Shown: positions 10,258 through 41,154 of the stretch, in pieces
Layout: every line of letters starts with the position of its first letter
Position numbering within the stretch: position 1 is the stretch's first letter
Source of the DNA: Thermodesulfobacteriota bacterium
Lineage (GTDB): Bacteria > Desulfobacterota > Desulfobacteria > Desulfobacterales > JAUWMJ01
Reading direction: 5' to 3'
Length of the DNA stretch: 64,000 nt
NCBI GenBank assembly: GCA_034189135.1
Contig: JAXHVO010000115.1
Location: forward strand, 1 to 64,000
Made by a program: the position numbers and the translations under genes
The notes under the pieces: model-generated
Seen by the model: the letters and a program-made list of their open reading frames with translations, nothing else
Told to the model about the DNA's origin: nothing
Databases searched by the model: none

Positions 10258-11571
10258 TTACACCGGGAGAAGCCTGAAATTTAAAAATCCCCAGATAAAA
10301 CCGATAGCACCGATAAATAGAGCAAACAGATCAATATACTTAAAATAGAACTTGTAAGTGATGGCCACCCGTTTTTCCGGCACACCGATTTTAGCAGGAG
10401 TAATTCGCAAAATCCAGCCGTAATGCTTCTTACCGATTAAAACCTTATTCCAGGTCAGCCGGTCAATTTTTTTTACATCCGTAAGTAGCAGTAACTCGCC
10501 CTTATCAACTTTTTTTAGCGATTTTGCGTGAATGCTTGGGTTTTCCCTGATATTTGTATCCTTTGATTTGACTTCGACAAATAAATGACTGGATTGAAAG
10601 ATTTCTTGGTTCAGTAGGATTCCAATTTTTGATGGCATATATTCCAGTGGGATAAAAGTGGCCGGAAGATAAAACAGGAAAAACCCGATACAAAAACCAA
10701 AACTTCCTTTGAGCATCATGAAAACAAAGTGAGGGACCGTCGTCATTCTTACCAGCAGTATGGTGGCTAAAAAGGCAATGGCTCCAAGGATCACAGGCAC
10801 AATCGGGGGAACACTAATAAAATGCTGCGGATTTAAATAAAAAAGCGCCAGGGACTCGGAATCAGCAAGGATATAGCGGATATATTTGATATAGAGAAAA
10901 TATAAGATACCGATACATGAAAGCGCATATATTAAGATTTCAATTTTTTGTCTCAGTTTCATGGCAAGAAAAGGGTCGATCTGAATCCCATCAATCAACT
11001 GGTTAAGGGATTCCCATTCACAACGGTAAAGCTTGATTTTCCTTTTTTTCCCTTTGGGTGTAAAACTGATAGACTTAACCAGGCCGAACGCTTTTTTGTT
11101 AATTTTATCGGCGGTATTTTCTGAAAGAAAAATTTCATTGCCCTCCCCGATTTGCTCTATCCTGGAGGCCACGTTCACCACATCGCCAAAAACATCACTG
11201 TGCTCAACAATCGCTTTTCCTGTATGTATTCCTATTCTCACCTTAAGACCGAAGTTTTTATCCTGTCTGCGGGTTTTTTGCAAAATTTGTTGAATGCCGA
11301 TGGCGGCTTTTACAGCCTGCTCGGGTCTGCTGAATGAAGCCATAATGGCATCGCCAATGGTTTTGATGATTTTGCCCTTAAATTTTTTTATTACCGGAAA
11401 AATCAAACGATTATGGTAATCGACCATGAGACGGCCGTCAATATCACCCCGGGTATCCCAGTAGCGGGTGGAGTCTTCGATATCAGTAAACAGAATGGTA
11501 ATCTGCTTTCTGGTGGATTTAATCTGGCGGGTAATCCTGCCACCAAACTGTTTACGCTTTTCTGCGGTCAT
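10258..11571 (-). CDS. Class III adenylate cyclase with membrane and SH3 domains
   Basis: This enzyme should make cAMP from ATP. The catalytic domain is N-terminal (residues about 20-200) with both metal-binding aspartates (FTDIEDS and TIGDAIMASF), the adenine-selecting Lys (GKIIKTIGD) and Asp (VFGDVVN), and the transition-state Asn/Arg pair (VNVASRIE). Three or four membrane segments follow (about 210-315), then a bacterial SH3 domain (NIRENPSIHAKSLKKVDKGE to HYGWILRI), then a last membrane segment. Cyclase first and sensor last is the reverse of the usual order. GGAG lies 8 bases before the ATG. An SH3 domain outside the cytoplasm would suggest cell-wall sensing, which is inference. Confidence 0.85.
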   Translation of the reverse strand: MTAEKRKQFGGRITRQIKSTRKQITILFTDIEDSTRYWDTRGDIDGRLMVDYHNRLIFPVIKKFKGKIIKTIGDAIMASFSRPEQAVKAAIGIQQILQKTRRQDKNFGLKVRIGIHTGKAIVEHSDVFGDVVNVASRIEQIGEGNEIFLSENTADKINKKAFGLVKSISFTPKGKKRKIKLYRCEWESLNQLIDGIQIDPFLAMKLRQKIEILIYALSCIGILYFLYIKYIRYILADSESLALFYLNPQHFISVPPIVPVILGAIAFLATILLVRMTTVPHFVFMMLKGSFGFCIGFFLFYLPATFIPLEYMPSKIGILLNQEIFQSSHLFVEVKSKDTNIRENPSIHAKSLKKVDKGELLLLTDVKKIDRLTWNKVLIGKKHYGWILRITPAKIGVPEKRVAITYKFYFKYIDLFALFIGAIGFIWGFLNFRLLPV

Positions 11572-22225: not shown

Positions 22226-22365
22226 GGATTCGAGCCAAAATAAATACACCAGTTTATTTGACCAATTGGGATCAATGGCTAAAATGCTTCAGTCGTTACA
22301 TGGTTCATTGAGAAAAATGTAAACGGTTACCGGGCTTTTGACTTTTGGGTGACGAAAGGAAAAAG

Positions 22366-22707
22366 ATGAAAATAGAAGAGACCTTACAACAGGATGTATC
22401 GTGCATTAACCTTAATGGACGATTTGATGCCAACACCAGCGATGCGGTGGAAAATTTTATACGGGAAAGAATCGAAAAAGGTCGCAGCCAGTTTGTATTG
22501 AATATGAAAAATGTATCGTTTATATCCAGTGCCGGTTTACGCGTTGTTATTATCATTGCTAGGGAACTGAGAAATGAATATCAGGGAGATTTGCATATCG
22601 CAGCGCTTCAGCCTTCTGTGAACAGAGTGTTTGAGATATCCGGGCTAAATAATATCCTTAAAATGTTTGACGATGAACAGGCAGCGGGCGAAGCTTTTTC
22701 CAAATAG
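22366..22707 (+). CDS. STAS-domain anti-sigma factor antagonist
   Basis: A single STAS domain of 113 aa resembles SpoIIAA/RsbV. The phosphorylatable-serine loop reads FISSAGLRVVII (about residue 57). Such proteins capture an RsbW-type kinase when unphosphorylated. The ATG at 22366 follows GAAAGGA by about six bases and is preferred over a TTG seven codons upstream. The next gene encodes the probable kinase partner. Confidence 0.85.
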   Translation: MKIEETLQQDVSCINLNGRFDANTSDAVENFIRERIEKGRSQFVLNMKNVSFISSAGLRVVIIIARELRNEYQGDLHIAALQPSVNRVFEISGLNNILKMFDDEQAAGEAFSK

Positions 22708-22746: not shown

Positions 22747-23181
22747 ATGAAACAGACATATGACTTTCCGGCTGATACTGCTGTTTTGGAAAAAATAGGC
22801 AAGCTGGCAACCGATGCGGGAGGTAATGCCGGGTTTGATGATATTGAAATCGGAGATATCCAGCTTGCTCTTGATGAAGTTTGTACCAATACGATTATTC
22901 ACGGACTTAAAAGCGATCCATCCAGAACCTTCCAAATGGTACTTCAGTGGGATCCCGGTGCAATCGAGATCCAGATTCATGAATCCGGGGAGCCTTTTGA
23001 TCCACTGGATTTTGACGATCCGAATCTGGAAAATATTATGGAACAGCAGACCGAGGGTGGCCTGGGACTCTATTTCCTGCGGGAACTTATGGATGAAGCG
23101 GACTTTCGGGTTGGACAGGATGGAACAAAAACATGGCGCATTGTAAAAAAGAAAGCTTCTCCGAAAAATCAAATACTGTAG
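22747..23181 (+). CDS. RsbW-like anti-sigma/serine kinase
   Basis: This is a GHKL-type ATP-binding protein of 144 aa, the expected partner of the STAS protein encoded 40 bases upstream. The N box is IQLALDEVCTNTIIHG (about residue 38), the G1-like box IHESGEPFDP (about 79), and the glycine-rich lid TEGGLGLYFLRELMDE (about 98). No sigma factor or PP2C phosphatase is encoded in the window, so the third partner must lie elsewhere. The targets could include the surface proteins upstream, which is inference. Confidence 0.83.
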   Translation: MKQTYDFPADTAVLEKIGKLATDAGGNAGFDDIEIGDIQLALDEVCTNTIIHGLKSDPSRTFQMVLQWDPGAIEIQIHESGEPFDPLDFDDPNLENIMEQQTEGGLGLYFLRELMDEADFRVGQDGTKTWRIVKKKASPKNQIL

Positions 23182-23308
23182 CCTAGAAATATTTAGTTGC
23201 ACTCCTCATCAAACATCCCCACATGACCTGACGATTATTATTCCAAGCGGATCCGAAGATGAAATGCTTTCTGGTCGGTTAATTAAAACAGATACTCAAG
23301 ATTGGTAG

Positions 23309-23530
23309 TTTATACTGTTTCTAAAAATATATTCCGTTTTTAACGATGAAAAACTCGTATATAAGAAATCGTAAAGAAAGAACCAGATATCTTTATTATA
23401 ATTAATTTCGGTATGACAACGACTACAATCAATTAGCCATATTGCGCTTAAGTTCTTTCTTAACGATTTCTAATACACTCAGACAGTTTCCTCATTTAAA
23501 ACGGAACATATTTTTGAGAATTACTATAAA
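23309..23530. repeat. Long imperfect inverted repeat, about 222 bp
   Basis: The left arm (23321-23383, extendable to 23309) and right arm (23452-23518, extendable to 23530) pair over about 65 bases with scattered mismatches and small gaps. The outer part pairs CTAAAAATATATTCCGTTTT with its complement, and the inner part pairs AGAAATCGTAAAGAAAGAAC with one mismatch. The loop is about 68 bases and noncoding. This fits a MITE-like element or a long RNA hairpin; no target duplication is evident. Confidence 0.65.
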
Positions 23531-23565
23531 GACGAATGCACTCCGAATTTTAGGCATGTTTAATC

Positions 23566-23610
23566 TTACATTAATGTAATTAATTGGGTAAAAAAATTAC
23601 ATTAATGTAA
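23566..23610. promoter_or_regulatory. Two identical 14-bp palindromes, enhancer-like
   Basis: TTACATTAATGTAA occurs at 23566-23579 and again at 23597-23610, each a perfect palindrome. Their centres are 31 bp apart, close to three helical turns. They lie about 140 and 110 bp upstream of the start predicted from the sigma-54 promoter at 23687. This matches the geometry of enhancer sites for sigma-54 activators. The sequence is not the NtrC consensus, so the binding protein is unknown. Confidence 0.7.
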
Positions 23611-23686
23611 GACAGCAACATTATTCCCAACCTGCATGATTATCATATCCTATTGCTTTAATTAATAAATATTTTTTTTCCCGGTT

Positions 23687-23703
23687 TTGGCATATCCATT
23701 GCA
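23687..23703 (+). promoter_or_regulatory. Sigma-54 promoter upstream of glnD
   Basis: TTGGCATATCCATTGCA carries the -24 GG (23689-23690) and -12 GC (23701-23702) with the required 10 bases between them, inside a close match to TGGCAC-N5-TTGCA. The predicted start is near 23714, about 40 bases before the glnD ATG. Sigma-54 control fits a nitrogen gene. Confidence 0.8.
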
Positions 23704-23753: not shown

Positions 23754-26360
23754 ATGCATTACAAAGCCTCAGTCATATTGAAAGAAAAAATCGGGCAGTT
23801 AATCTCAGATCTTAGGGAAGAAAATACCCTTTCTTTTCTAAAAGGGCATTCGCAAATTTTGGACGAATACTTGCAAACCGGTTTTGCCACAAGCATGGTC
23901 GGCCCAAGCATTGACCTGGCAAAAAATCCGTATGCATTCATTGCTCTTGGAGGATATGGCCGTCAGGAGCAATGTGTTTATTCCGATGTCGATCTTCTTT
24001 TTCTTTTTAAAGAAAGTGTACCGGTGGAAGCCGAGAGTCTTATCCGTGAAATCGTTTATCCACTGTGGGATATCGGTCTGGATGTCGGTTATGCCACCCG
24101 TTCAATAAAGGAGTGTTTAACCCTTGCTCGAAATGATTTTGCAGTTTTGACATCTTTATTGGATGCGCGTTTTATTTGCGGAATGTCTCCTTTATATTCA
24201 AAGCTAATGCAGCAGCTGAGGAAAAAAATCATCAAAAAAGATCATCAAAAAATCATTGACCGGCTGGTGGAAAGCAGCAATGAACGCCATATTCGTTTCG
24301 GAGACTCTACCTATCGCCTCGAGCCCAACCTGAAGGAAGGACAAGGAGGCTTGAGAGATTATCATACCATACTGTGGCTATCCAGGGTAGAATTTCAACT
24401 CAAACAGCCGAGAGATCTTGAGTATGATGGCCGACTCTCCCATGAAGAGTTTAAGGAGCTCACCGAAGCTCTTTCATTTATCTGGAATGTGCGAAATCGG
24501 CTCCACTTGTTGGCAGGCAGGAAATGCGATCAACTTCATTTCGAAAATCAGATTTCGCTGGCCGAAAAACTTAAATATAAAATATCAAACGGGCAGCAAC
24601 CGGTTGAAAGACTTCTGGGCCGGCTTCATCGCATGATGGATTTTATAAAACAGCAACACCTGATGTTTCTTTACGAACTCGGATATAGGGCCGGTAGAAA
24701 AACCAGAAAGCGACTAGCAAAGGAGTCTAAGGTAAATGGAATAGAAGTTATAAGGGATATGCTGAACTATACTTCCTCAGAAAAAATCTTAAGCTCACCT
24801 AATCTACTGCTTTTCATATTCGAAGAAAGTATGCGGTTGGAAATCCCTCTGAGTCATGAAGCCAAACGAATGGTAAAGGAATTCGGCTATCTTGTCGACA
24901 CCGACTTCAGAACTTCGGTTTTCAATGTTAAAATTTTTGAACGTATTTTATTAACGCCTGCTCCTGCTTTCAATGTTCTAAAAGAAATGCTCAGCACCGG
25001 CTTTTTGGTCCGCTTTATTCCTGAATTTGATCGGATTGTTAACCGGATCCAGTATGATGAGTATCACCTCTTTCCTGTGGATAAGCATTTACTTCGGACC
25101 GTGCAGATAGTTAAAAATTTTGCCGCCGGTGGTGATGCCACAGATCCTTTATGTATCGATTTGTATAAAGAACTTAAAAGCAAAAGGCTTTTGCTGTGGG
25201 CGGCTTTGCTTCACGATATCGGAAAGGGGGACCTGACAGCCGATCATTCCAAAAGCGGAGCTGGAATTGCTAAAAAAATACTTTCGGAGAAAGGATTTAA
25301 ATCAAAGGACATTGAAACAGTATCCTTTTTAATTGAAAGGCACCTGTTTTTAATTAAAACAGCCACAAGAAGAGATATCCACGACGAGGAGACATCCATT
25401 TTTTGCGCAACAACGGTAAAGGAGATTGATCGCCTGAAAATGCTATATCTTTTGACTGTTGCCGATTCCATGGCAACAGGACCCAAAGCGTGGAATGACT
25501 GGACGCAAACCTTGCTCAGGGATTTTTTTCTTAAGGTGTTAAATGTCCTTGAAAAAGGAGAGTTGGCAAGCCGAAAAGCGGTTAAAGTCATGGAAATGAA
25601 GAAATCTCAGCTTCTCAGTGAGGAATCGCTACCGGAAAGCAAAAAGGATTTGGAAGAACTCTTTAACGTCTTTTCGCCGAGATATCTTTTGTACGCTGAT
25701 ACAGGGCAGATCACGGAAGATATAAGGCTTTATAAAAGTCTTGGGGAGAAAGAGTTTGTCTGGGACATAACAAAATCAGCCGATGCAAACACACGGGTGG
25801 TCAAAATTTGCGCCAAAGACCGGCCAGGAATCTTTTCAAAGATTTCAGGTGTGTTCACTTTAAACAGCATCGATATTATTGATGCACAAATTTTCACCTG
25901 GAGAAACCGGATTGCACTGGATATCTTCACTGTCAAACCACCTTTGGAGCAGCTTTTTGAAGATGAACGCTGGAAGCGGGTGGGAAAAAATCTTCAATCA
26001 GCATTGTCAGAAGATCTCGATCTTACAAAGTCCCTTAGCGAAAAAATGGCGGCATACAAATCTTTGAAAACCTTGGGATTTATAAGGCCGCATCGAATCG
26101 TCGTTGATAATGACAGTTCCAGCTTTTTTACCATTGTTGAGGTGTTTGCATATGACTTTCCCGGACTCCTTTTCACTATTACGGATGCCCTTTTCAGCTG
26201 CAAGCTCGATATCTGGGTGGCAAAAATAGCCACCAAGGTGGACCAGGTAGTAGATGTTTTTTATGTCAGGGATTTTGACGGTCAGAAGGTCGATTCGTCT
26301 GACCATGTGGATGAAATAAAAGCAGCCATAGAAAAAAGACTTCCGCCAATAGCTTCATAA
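23754..26360 (+). CDS. glnD: P-II uridylyltransferase/uridylyl-removing enzyme
   Basis: This bifunctional nitrogen sensor uridylylates P-II when glutamine is low and removes UMP when it is high. At 868 aa it has the full GlnD length. The nucleotidyltransferase motif GGYGRQEQCVYSDVDLLF is at residues about 66-83. The HD domain for UMP removal contains LLWAALLHDIGKGD (about 481-494). Two C-terminal ACT domains (about 683-760 and 787-868) should bind glutamine. Its substrate P-II is encoded at 27841 and retains the target tyrosine. The gene follows a sigma-54 promoter and precedes amt-glnK-glnA on the same strand. Confidence 0.95.
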   Translation: MHYKASVILKEKIGQLISDLREENTLSFLKGHSQILDEYLQTGFATSMVGPSIDLAKNPYAFIALGGYGRQEQCVYSDVDLLFLFKESVPVEAESLIREIVYPLWDIGLDVGYATRSIKECLTLARNDFAVLTSLLDARFICGMSPLYSKLMQQLRKKIIKKDHQKIIDRLVESSNERHIRFGDSTYRLEPNLKEGQGGLRDYHTILWLSRVEFQLKQPRDLEYDGRLSHEEFKELTEALSFIWNVRNRLHLLAGRKCDQLHFENQISLAEKLKYKISNGQQPVERLLGRLHRMMDFIKQQHLMFLYELGYRAGRKTRKRLAKESKVNGIEVIRDMLNYTSSEKILSSPNLLLFIFEESMRLEIPLSHEAKRMVKEFGYLVDTDFRTSVFNVKIFERILLTPAPAFNVLKEMLSTGFLVRFIPEFDRIVNRIQYDEYHLFPVDKHLLRTVQIVKNFAAGGDATDPLCIDLYKELKSKRLLLWAALLHDIGKGDLTADHSKSGAGIAKKILSEKGFKSKDIETVSFLIERHLFLIKTATRRDIHDEETSIFCATTVKEIDRLKMLYLLTVADSMATGPKAWNDWTQTLLRDFFLKVLNVLEKGELASRKAVKVMEMKKSQLLSEESLPESKKDLEELFNVFSPRYLLYADTGQITEDIRLYKSLGEKEFVWDITKSADANTRVVKICAKDRPGIFSKISGVFTLNSIDIIDAQIFTWRNRIALDIFTVKPPLEQLFEDERWKRVGKNLQSALSEDLDLTKSLSEKMAAYKSLKTLGFIRPHRIVVDNDSSSFFTIVEVFAYDFPGLLFTITDALFSCKLDIWVAKIATKVDQVVDVFYVRDFDGQKVDSSDHVDEIKAAIEKRLPPIAS

Positions 26361-26487: not shown

Positions 26488-27786
26488 ATGAAATTTAAAA
26501 AAATTATTTTAACGGTGAATATCTTATTGGCACCTTTTTCATCAGCCTTTGCGGCTGATATGTTAAATTCAGGTGACACTGCATGGATTATCGTGGCCAC
26601 AGCTCTGGTTATGGTGATGACACCGGCGGGTCTGGCGCTCTTCTATGGCGGAATGTCACGGTACAAAAACCTTCTCAATACAATTGCAATGACTTTTGTT
26701 GCCTATTGTCTCGCGAGTGTGATCTGGATGATGTGGGGCTATACCCTGGCATTTGGCTCTGATAAAGGAGGGGTAATAGGTGGTCTGGAAAATCTGTTTT
26801 TAGCCGGAGTCGGTGTGAACAGCCTTACCGGTTCTATTCCGACATATGTCTTTTTACTTTTTCAGATGACGTTTGCCTGTATTACTGTGGCCCTTGTTCT
26901 TGGTTCTATTGTTGACAGAATGAAATTTTCTTCGTGGATTGTTTTCACTGTTTTGTGGATCACCTTCATTTATTGCCCCATTGCCCACTGGGTGTGGGGT
27001 GGCGGCTGGATGGGGAAAATGGGCGCGCTTGATTTTGCCGGCGGGACGGTGGTGCATATCAATGCCGGTGTGGCCGGCCTCGTTCTTTCCTTAGTTGTAG
27101 GCAAGCGGATCGGATATGGTAAAGAAGCAATGTTTCCCTCTAGTATCGTGTTCACCGGTTTGGGTGCGGCGCTTCTCTGGTTTGGATGGTTCGGCTTTAA
27201 TGCTGGCAGTCAGCTTGCCGCGGACGGCGTTGCCGGGTCCGCTTTCTTGGTTACCAACACTTCTGCTTCCATGGCCGCCCTGTCCTGGATGTTTACAGAA
27301 TGGCTGGTAAATAAAAAACCGACCGTACTTGGAATGGCATCCGGAGTGGTTGCCGGGCTGGTTGCAATCACACCTGCAGCAGGGTTTGTCAACTTGTCCG
27401 CATCGATTGTTATCGGACTCGTTGCTGGAGTTCTTGGTTTTTATTCTGTTGCGGTACTCAAGCAAAAAATGGGTTATGATGATTCTTTAGATGCATTCGG
27501 CGTTCACGGCGTATGTGGTATTTGGGGTGCTCTTGCAACCGGAATTTTTGCCAATCCGGCAATAACCGAAGGAGCAAAGGGTCTGATTTATGGGAACCCG
27601 AAACAGCTTTGGATCCAGTTTGTTTCCATAGTTGCCACAGCGGTTTTCACAGCTGTCGGAACCATCATTGTAATATATGTGACAAAATTAATCACCAGCG
27701 GCTTAAGAGTAGAAGAGGAAAGCGAAATAATGGGTTTGGACAGCTCCATACATGGTGAGAGAGGGTTTGAAATACAGGAAGTATAA
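26488..27786 (+). CDS. amt: Ammonium transporter
   Basis: This inner-membrane Amt/MEP/Rh channel for ammonium has 432 aa with a cleavable-looking leader (to about residue 23) and about eleven membrane segments. Family features are PAGLALFYGGMSRYKN (about 46), the pore histidine in CPIAHWVWGGG (about 167) and the second in AFGVHGVCGIWGALATG (about 340). It lies 54 bases before the P-II gene, the conserved amt-glnK arrangement in which uridylylation-sensitive P-II plugs the channel. Confidence 0.95.
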   Translation: MKFKKIILTVNILLAPFSSAFAADMLNSGDTAWIIVATALVMVMTPAGLALFYGGMSRYKNLLNTIAMTFVAYCLASVIWMMWGYTLAFGSDKGGVIGGLENLFLAGVGVNSLTGSIPTYVFLLFQMTFACITVALVLGSIVDRMKFSSWIVFTVLWITFIYCPIAHWVWGGGWMGKMGALDFAGGTVVHINAGVAGLVLSLVVGKRIGYGKEAMFPSSIVFTGLGAALLWFGWFGFNAGSQLAADGVAGSAFLVTNTSASMAALSWMFTEWLVNKKPTVLGMASGVVAGLVAITPAAGFVNLSASIVIGLVAGVLGFYSVAVLKQKMGYDDSLDAFGVHGVCGIWGALATGIFANPAITEGAKGLIYGNPKQLWIQFVSIVATAVFTAVGTIIVIYVTKLITSGLRVEEESEIMGLDSSIHGERGFEIQEV

Positions 27787-27810: not shown

Positions 27811-28179
<369 letters not shown>

Positions 28180-28368: not shown

Positions 28369-29781
28369 ATGACAGCAAAACAAGTATTAGACATGGTTAA
28401 AGAAAAGGATATCAGGGTTGTTGATATCCGCTTTATGGATTTTCCGGGTGTATGGCAGCATTTTACAGTTCCTGTCAGCGAACTGGAAGAGGCGAGTTTT
28501 GAAGACGGATTCGGTTTTGACGGGTCGAGTATCCGTGGGTGGCAGCCGATTCACGCCAGTGATATGCTGGTAGTTCCTGATGCTTCTACTGCACAAATAG
28601 ATCCTTTTTTCAAAGAGCAGACTCTCGTGCTGATAGGCAATATTGTTGATCCGGTGACGAGAGAGTCATACTCTCGTGATCCACGGTACATTACCCAAAA
28701 GGCCGAAACCTATCTGAAGAGCACCGGAATTGGTGACACCGCATATTTTGGTCCTGAAGCGGAGTTTTTTATCTTTGATAATATCCGGTTCGAGTCATCA
28801 AGCAACAGTTCTTTTTATGAAATTGATTCCATCGAAGGGGTCTGGAATACAGGCAGAGATGAAGATCCCAACCTGGGTTACAAGCCCAGGCACAAAGAAG
28901 GCTATTTCCCGGTTCCTCCCATGGATAAATTTCAGGATCTGAGAACAGAGATGGTGCTGGTTTTAGAGAGCCTGGGCATCGATGTTGAATGCCAGCACCA
29001 CGAGGTTGCTACCGCCGGCCAGGCGGAAATTGATATGCGCTTTAAGCCGTTACTTCAGATGGCGGATCAGCTGATGTGGTTCAAATATGTTTTGAAAAAC
29101 GTTGCCCATCGTCACAATCGTACCGTTACTTTCATGCCGAAACCGTTGTTTGAAGACAACGGAACAGGTATGCATACACATATAAGCATTTGGAATTCAG
29201 ATAAACCGCTTTTCGCCGGAGATCAATATGCCGGAGTATCTCAGGAAGCTTTATACGCCATTGGTGGAATTTTAAAGCACTGCAAGGCCCTTTGTGCCTT
29301 TACAAATCCCACCACCAACTCATACAAGAGGCTTGTTCCCGGTTTTGAAGCACCGGTAAATCTGGCCTATTCAAGTCGCAATCGAAGTGCGGCAATCCGA
29401 ATTCCCATGTATTCAGCGTCCCCCAAGGCAAAACGGATAGAGTTCAGAACGCCGGATCCCTCCTGTAATGGCTACCTGGCATTTTCCGCTATGCTTATGG
29501 CTGTTATAGACGGTATTCAGAACAAGATGGATCCCGGTGAGCCTCTTGATAAAAACATATACGATCTTCCACCTGAAGAGCTGGCTGAAGTCGAATCCGC
29601 TCCCGGCTCACTGGACGAATCGCTTAATGCATTAAAAGAAGACCACCAGTTTCTGTTAAAAGGGGATGTTTTCACTCAGGATGCTATCGACATGTGGATT
29701 GAATACAAAACGGAAAACGAAGTCAATCCGGTGAAACTCAGACCTCATCCCCACGAGTTTTTCCTCTATTTTGATATATAG
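28369..29781 (+). CDS. glnA: Glutamine synthetase type I
   Basis: This enzyme makes glutamine from glutamate, ammonium and ATP. At 470 aa it has the standard GSI length. Motifs include [13 protein letters not shown] (about residue 45), the catalytic [11 protein letters not shown] (about 127), the ATP region [14 protein letters not shown] (about 260) and [17 protein letters not shown] (about 357). Tyr398 in [10 protein letters not shown] matches the adenylylation site of GSI-beta enzymes, though no adenylyltransferase gene is in the window. AAAGGAG precedes the ATG. Confidence 0.96.
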
Positions 29782-29799
29782 TTTGTCATCAAAGGGTTT

Positions 29800-29830
29800 A
29801 GCCCTCCGTAATTTCGGAGGGCTGATTGCT
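29800..29830 (+). terminator. Hairpin terminator after glnA
   Basis: A perfect 9-bp stem (AGCCCTCCG at 29800-29808 with CGGAGGGCT at 29815-29823) has a 6-base loop. It is followed by a short T-rich stretch (GATTGCTTTT). The position 19 bases after the glnA stop supports a terminator. Confidence 0.75.
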
Positions 29831-40689: not shown

Positions 40690-41097
40690 TCATTTGCTTA
40701 ATTTAAAATATTTTATTGCCAGCAGTGCACCCAGTTCACTGCAAATAATACCGATTACCACAAAAAGAACAAAATCCGACTTGGTAAACAGATTTTCGTC
40801 AAACAAATAAAAAGAAGTGATACTTAAAATAATATAAGTGATGATAACGTTTAAAAAACCAGCGCCAATGGAGGATATTTGTTTATACTTTATGGCTTCC
40901 CTGGTTTTATCTACCAGGGAATATCCGGTCATTGCCGTATTAAATGCAATTATCCACGGTATAAACGGCACCACACGGTATGGCTCCAGGAAAACAGCCA
41001 AAAAGATTGTAAGGACTGCCGTGCCAAATATACCCGATAGTGTGCAATAAGCAAACTTACCCAGCAAAGGGGCCTTTCCCTTTAGGTCAATCATCAT
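40690..41097 (-). CDS. Small four-helix membrane protein, unknown
   Basis: This 135-aa protein has four hydrophobic segments (about 17-35, 38-55, 77-97, 108-128) and a short cytoplasmic loop (DKTREAIKYKQISSIG). I recognise no family. Two consecutive ATG codons start it (41097 and 41094), and GGAG immediately upstream fits the second better. A sigma-54 promoter lies 41 bases upstream, so it heads a transcript that may continue 170 bases later into the TauE fusion gene. Confidence 0.7.
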   Translation of the reverse strand: MMIDLKGKAPLLGKFAYCTLSGIFGTAVLTIFLAVFLEPYRVVPFIPWIIAFNTAMTGYSLVDKTREAIKYKQISSIGAGFLNVIITYIILSITSFYLFDENLFTKSDFVLFVVIGIICSELGALLAIKYFKLSK

Positions 41098-41137: not shown

Positions 41138-41154
41138 AAGCAAGCTGTATGCCA
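41138..41154 (-). promoter_or_regulatory. Sigma-54 promoter for the minus-strand membrane genes
   Basis: On the minus strand TGGCATACAGCTTGCTT matches TGGCAC-N5-TTGCW with exactly 10 bases between the -24 GG and -12 GC. Transcription would begin near 41128, about 30 bases before the ATG of the small membrane protein. The same cluster encodes a sigma-54 activator. Confidence 0.75.

Follow-up and report, generated by a model that had tools for sequence, protein, structure and literature searches.

The window analyzed here, meaning the whole stretch of 64,000 nucleotides, carries glnD, amtB, glnK and glnA in this order on one strand, separated by intergenic gaps of 127, 54 and 189 bp (Table 1). 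No forward sigma-70-type site is listed between position 23150 and the start of glnD, nor is any forward terminator-like site listed in the gaps among the four genes. Since the genes share a strand, these two scans list no such sites, and a strong terminator-like hairpin follows glnA, the sigma-54 promoter ahead of glnD probably serves the entire glnD-amtB-glnK-glnA unit. Upstream of the glnD control region lie a STAS/anti-sigma-factor-antagonist gene (22345-22707), an anti-sigma-kinase-like gene (22747-23181) and a 222-bp repeat (23308-23531) with imperfect inverted arms, whose ends read TTATACTGTTTCT and GAATTACTATAA. Dozens of full or partial copies of this element occur in the genome, as befits a non-autonomous, MITE-like repeat. 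A second perfect sigma-54 promoter in the window, TGGCATACAGCTTGCT, is found on the minus strand at 41139-41154. A small membrane-protein-like ORF (40690-41097) begins about 42 bp after it, with a TauE-like gene and a histidine kinase/response-regulator pair further downstream.

Table 1. Features of the glnD control region and of the unit downstream (window coordinates)
Feature	Position	Strand	Remarks
Enhancer box 1, TTACATTAATGTAA	23566-23579	.	centre at -141.5 from the predicted start
Enhancer box 2, TTACATTAATGTAA	23597-23610	.	centre at -110.5 from the predicted start
Sigma-54 promoter (-24/-12), TGGCATATCCATTGCA	23688-23703	+	0 mismatches to TGGCAYRNNNNTTGCW; GG at 23689-23690, GC at 23701-23702
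Predicted transcription start	23714	+	12 nt past the C of GC; from sigma-54 promoter geometry
glnD, [protein-PII] uridylyltransferase	23754-26360	+	ATG at 23754; TIGR01693, 620.1 bits (cut-off 519.4)
amtB, ammonium transporter	26488-27786	+	TIGR00836 above cut-off; PF00909
glnK/glnB, PII protein	27841-28179	+	PF00543
glnA, type I glutamine synthetase	28369-29781	+	TIGR00653, 668.4 (cut-off 429.15)
Terminator-like hairpin closing the unit	29798-29825	+	11 pairs, 7 of them G-C; consensus match only

The promoter has the complete -24/-12 element TGGCAYR-N4-TTGCW, including GG-N10-GC. The original prediction had placed a near-consensus sigma-54 promoter here; the element is present and even a perfect match, with its first base one position further downstream than proposed (23688, not 23687). 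Two identical perfect palindromes had also been described, 31 bp apart and centred near -141 and -110, and their coordinates are exactly as claimed. Box 1 starts about 121 bp and box 2 about 90 bp ahead of TGGCA, so that both fall within the range of upstream activator sites, some 80-150 bp from the start. The 14-mer has no other perfect copy in the 4.63 Mb host genome, where 0.06 would be expected, and an exact sigma-54 element is likewise expected only 0.06 times per window from base composition. The twin boxes and the promoter are therefore not a product of chance. Together with 2-bp flanks the boxes make an 18-nt perfect inverted repeat, which is not conserved and can be explained as a by-product of the two identical palindromes. 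As for an NtrC-type site (TGCACY-N5-RGTGCA), none is found with up to three mismatches between 23150 and 23754, which bears out the earlier remark that the palindrome is not an NtrC site.

Conservation upstream of glnD had been set in advance as the test on which the palindromes would stand or fall. The exact 14-mer turns out to be local, but the core TTACA-N4-TGTAA is kept at both positions. The two congeneric genomes have the box pairs TTACATTATTGTAA/TTACATTTTTGTAA and TTACATTATTGTAA/TTACATTTCTGTAA, and in both a perfect sigma-54 promoter follows at the spacings seen in the host. Across the order, 70 glnD upstream regions were sampled and a sigma-54 element (up to one mismatch) was recovered in 53. 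A box with up to two mismatches occupies one or both positions at 40 of these 53 promoters (shuffle mean 1.27), and both boxes are present, 30-32 bp apart, at 26 of the 53 (none in the shuffles); about a quarter have no box at either position. A set of 40 exact boxes has TTACA-WWWW-TGTAA as its consensus, the centre being nearly always A/T, and TTACA-N4-TGTAA ahead of a sigma-54 promoter is kept across dozens of families. The glnD promoters of the order also show weak A/T conservation around -42, -31 and -20 from TGGCA, in steps of about 11 bp, equivalent to positions 23646, 23657 and 23668 of the window, between boxes and promoter. Such a periodicity might be produced by a bend site or by A/T tracts in phase.

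Could the palindromes be a hairpin, or a part of the 222-bp repeat, with no regulatory role? The 18-nt perfect inverted repeat would fold well as a single strand, and the repeat element ends only about 32 bp upstream of the boxes. However, the four central bases vary from relative to relative, and also from one box to the other within a relative, and so a large hairpin is not kept. An RNA element is further disfavoured by the lack of any Rfam match, and by centres that are not conserved while half-sites and position are. Matches to the repeat stop short of box 1, leaving both boxes outside it, and boxes occur in relatives throughout the order; an origin of the boxes in the repeat is rejected, the element being separate from them. 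Of all the explanations weighed here, this one is the hardest to credit.

The more relaxed box TACAWWWWTGTA occurs at seven sites in the host genome, where about 12 would be expected by base composition. The count is thus not raised, and it is the locations that matter. Two of the sites are the glnD boxes. Another precedes a second glnK-amtB operon, which also has a perfect sigma-54 promoter, TGGCACACCCTTTGCT, and, 30 bp past the box, a degenerate second copy of it; a further one lies between amtB2 and the next gene (glnK2-amtB2 locus, L425:1440-1760 and L426; boxes at 10820 and 12871 of G000:C72). A fifth, with no sigma-54 promoter beside it, is followed after 45 bp by a sigma-54 activator gene (G000:C85:16711-18240). 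Of the two remaining sites, one falls within a gltX-like gene and the other in a gap close to genes resembling dnaA and yidC; these names were read from sequence without a family search.

The same association holds on a larger scale. When genomes were searched for TACA-N4-TGTA with a perfect sigma-54 element 65-95 bp further on, 76 relatives gave 23 matches, against none for the reversed pattern used as control. Within the order the pattern occurs in 94 of 389 genomes (a single match for the control), and at the level of the phylum in 27 of 395. Among 131 distinct sites, 107 precede glnD (56), amtB (21), glnK (17), the gene for GS III (8) or glnA (5). Six further sites lie ahead of a GOGAT-type class II glutamine amidotransferase, so named from the start of its sequence without a family search (loci L165, L173, L175, L184, L192 and L195), which suggests that glutamate synthase is part of the regulon in one family, and one site precedes a nifV-looking gene. 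The presence of the box before amtB, glnK, glnA, GS III and GOGAT-type genes means that it marks a nitrogen-assimilation regulon. Control at the top of the nitrogen cascade, as first envisaged, is thus only part of the picture: glnD is indeed targeted, but so are the transporter, PII and glutamine synthetase genes and those of GOGAT type. The distance between box and promoter peaks at 88-92 bp, and minor groups near 79 and 101 lie one helical turn to either side of the peak.

These distances bear on the possibility that a conventional repressor or activator uses the boxes as operators, and that their position relative to the sigma-54 promoter is incidental. TTACA-N4-TGTAA is a generic palindrome, and the box at the activator gene has no adjoining sigma-54 promoter, both of which are compatible with a conventional operator. 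However, fixed positions with respect to TGGCA, helical phasing and a twin spacing of 30-32 bp are typical of enhancer sites, and an operator of the conventional kind is very improbable. Judged from its sequence, the control region is conserved and appears to be a genuine sigma-54 enhancer for nitrogen assimilation.

Which protein would act at this enhancer? The activator gene preceded by a box, located outside the window, encodes a one-component protein with GAF, sigma-54 AAA+ and Fis-type HTH domains, and was selected as the best match in five box-bearing loci among the host activators recovered. A domain search finds no receiver domain in it, the GAF domain being there instead. The protein scores 529.1 with the NifA model TIGR01817 (cut-off 528.85) and 331.8 bits with the NtrC model TIGR01818, well below the cut-off of 558.6. 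Four orthologues fall on both sides of the NifA cut-off (527.4, 523.9, 556.8 and 560.4), and the match ends before the C-terminal part of the model in four of the five proteins scanned (one a fragment), the protein from L230 being matched to the end. Orthologues are present in most genomes of the order, mostly 64-94% identical, and the family occurs in 220 of the 395 sampled genomes of the phylum. Cultivable relatives that encode an orthologue include Desulfosarcina alkanivorans, Desulfonema magnum and Desulfatitalea alkaliphila. An exact box lies within 300 bp upstream at 30 of 80 orthologue loci in named genomes (0.28 expected), a figure that rises to 55 of 80 when one mismatch is allowed (8.15 expected) and leaves 25 with none; gln genes are found within the fetched flanks of many of these loci. 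Eight genomes have glnD and no detected orthologue, and six of them also lack a box at glnD; the other two keep their glnD boxes (G020, 79% complete, and G074, 98% complete). The sequence evidence alone points to this protein as the likely activator, and the suggestion that an activator other than NtrC is at work gains a concrete GAF-AAA+-Fis candidate.

An alternative is that the boxes do form a sigma-54 enhancer for nitrogen genes, with a two-component response regulator of the DVU3220 or NtrC type, and not a GAF one-component protein, as the activator. The host genome encodes some 33 activators that have a sigma-54 interaction domain, and in Desulfovibrio vulgaris the response regulator DVU3220 bound the DVU1231-1234 operon (amtB, PII, GlnD) in gel shifts (EMSA; Rajeev et al., 2011, PMC3333781). 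Because of this binding, a second activator may act at glnD here. However, a box is found upstream of none of 27 other host activator genes examined, a small sample in which each gene was taken in its own frame with mechanically assigned starts, whereas the GAF activator gene has one. The orthologues of the GAF activator carry the box and adjoin gln genes, and the glnD promoter has no NtrC-like site nearby. A response regulator in this role is accordingly unlikely, if less so than the other two alternatives.

We favour with considerable confidence a model in which the NifA-like GAF-AAA+-Fis activator would drive glnD-amtB-glnK-glnA through the twin boxes, DNA looping and the sigma-54 promoter when nitrogen is short, and would also regulate its own gene; activator binding, looping, the nitrogen signal and the sign of autoregulation are what we infer. 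The sigma-54 polymerase would be poised at its promoter, and activator dimers on the two TTACA-N4-TGTAA boxes could seed an oligomer of the AAA+ ATPase. Looping of the DNA over about 110-140 bp would then bring the oligomer to the polymerase, leading to promoter opening under shortage of fixed nitrogen. Nitrogen status may reach the activator through its GAF domain, either directly or by way of PII. The box that precedes the gene of the activator itself by 45 bp, with no sigma-54 promoter beside it, suggests autoregulation, which may be negative or indirect.

It is also reasonably probable, at a lower level of confidence, that this arrangement extends to the order as a whole. A single NifA-like GAF one-component activator, and not NtrB/NtrC, would be the master regulator of ammonium assimilation (glnD, amtB, glnK, glnA, GS III and GOGAT), with enhancers that reach the -110/-140 twin geometry of enterobacterial glnA through an unrelated recognition sequence. 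The sensing of nitrogen shortage and the response to it are little documented for the sulfate reducers of this group in the literature searched, and nitrogen regulation is absent from the 2004 delta-proteobacterial reconstruction. A box that marks nitrogen-assimilation operons over dozens of families, together with a candidate activator, makes the regulon testable and its targets predictable throughout the order. The system is moreover a natural example of NtrC-like enhancer geometry paired with a different site and a different likely activator, and is relevant to the question of why looping favours such distances.

The principle itself is already established, and a sister regulon has been predicted. 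According to Kazakov et al. (2015, PMC4641369), DVU1949, a one-component sigma-54 activator of D. vulgaris, is predicted to control DVU1231-1233, other nitrogen operons and its own gene; DVU1231-1233 encode the ammonium transporter, PII and the PII uridylyltransferase (PMC3333781). As described there, that regulon shares with the present one a one-component sigma-54 activator acting on amtB-PII-glnD and on other nitrogen operons, a role for which the GAF protein is the proposed regulator here. It differs in belonging to another lineage of sulfate reducers (Desulfovibrio), and the likeness concerns the description of the regulon. The GAF activator is plausibly the counterpart of DVU1949. The available text of that paper does not describe a twin-box geometry for DVU1949, and the box sequence, under four spellings, was not found in print in the literature searched. 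What appears undescribed in that literature is the box, the twin geometry and the order-wide reach. DVU3220 resembles the regulator sought here in binding the region of the amtB-PII-GlnD operon, but it is a two-component response regulator and has no known motif.

The two remaining comparisons concern geometry and domain architecture. At E. coli glnAp2, NtrC uses a pair of palindromic sites separated by about three helical turns, some 110 and 140 bp upstream of the sigma-54 start (near -108 and -140). NifA recognizes upstream activator sequences of the form TGT-N10-ACA. The candidate shares the GAF-AAA+-Fis architecture of NifA, but the half-sites of the box stand in the opposite order (ACA..TGT), the 40 boxes do not fit the upstream activator sequence, and the targets here are ammonium-assimilation genes. 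With E. coli glnA, where NtrC sites one and two are located between -100 and -151 (PMC5696343), the glnD enhancer has in common the twin-site geometry, at -141 and -110, and the probable control of glutamine synthetase, so that the likeness noted at the outset is upheld. However, its site is TTACA-N4-TGTAA, and its likely activator is a GAF protein without a receiver domain.
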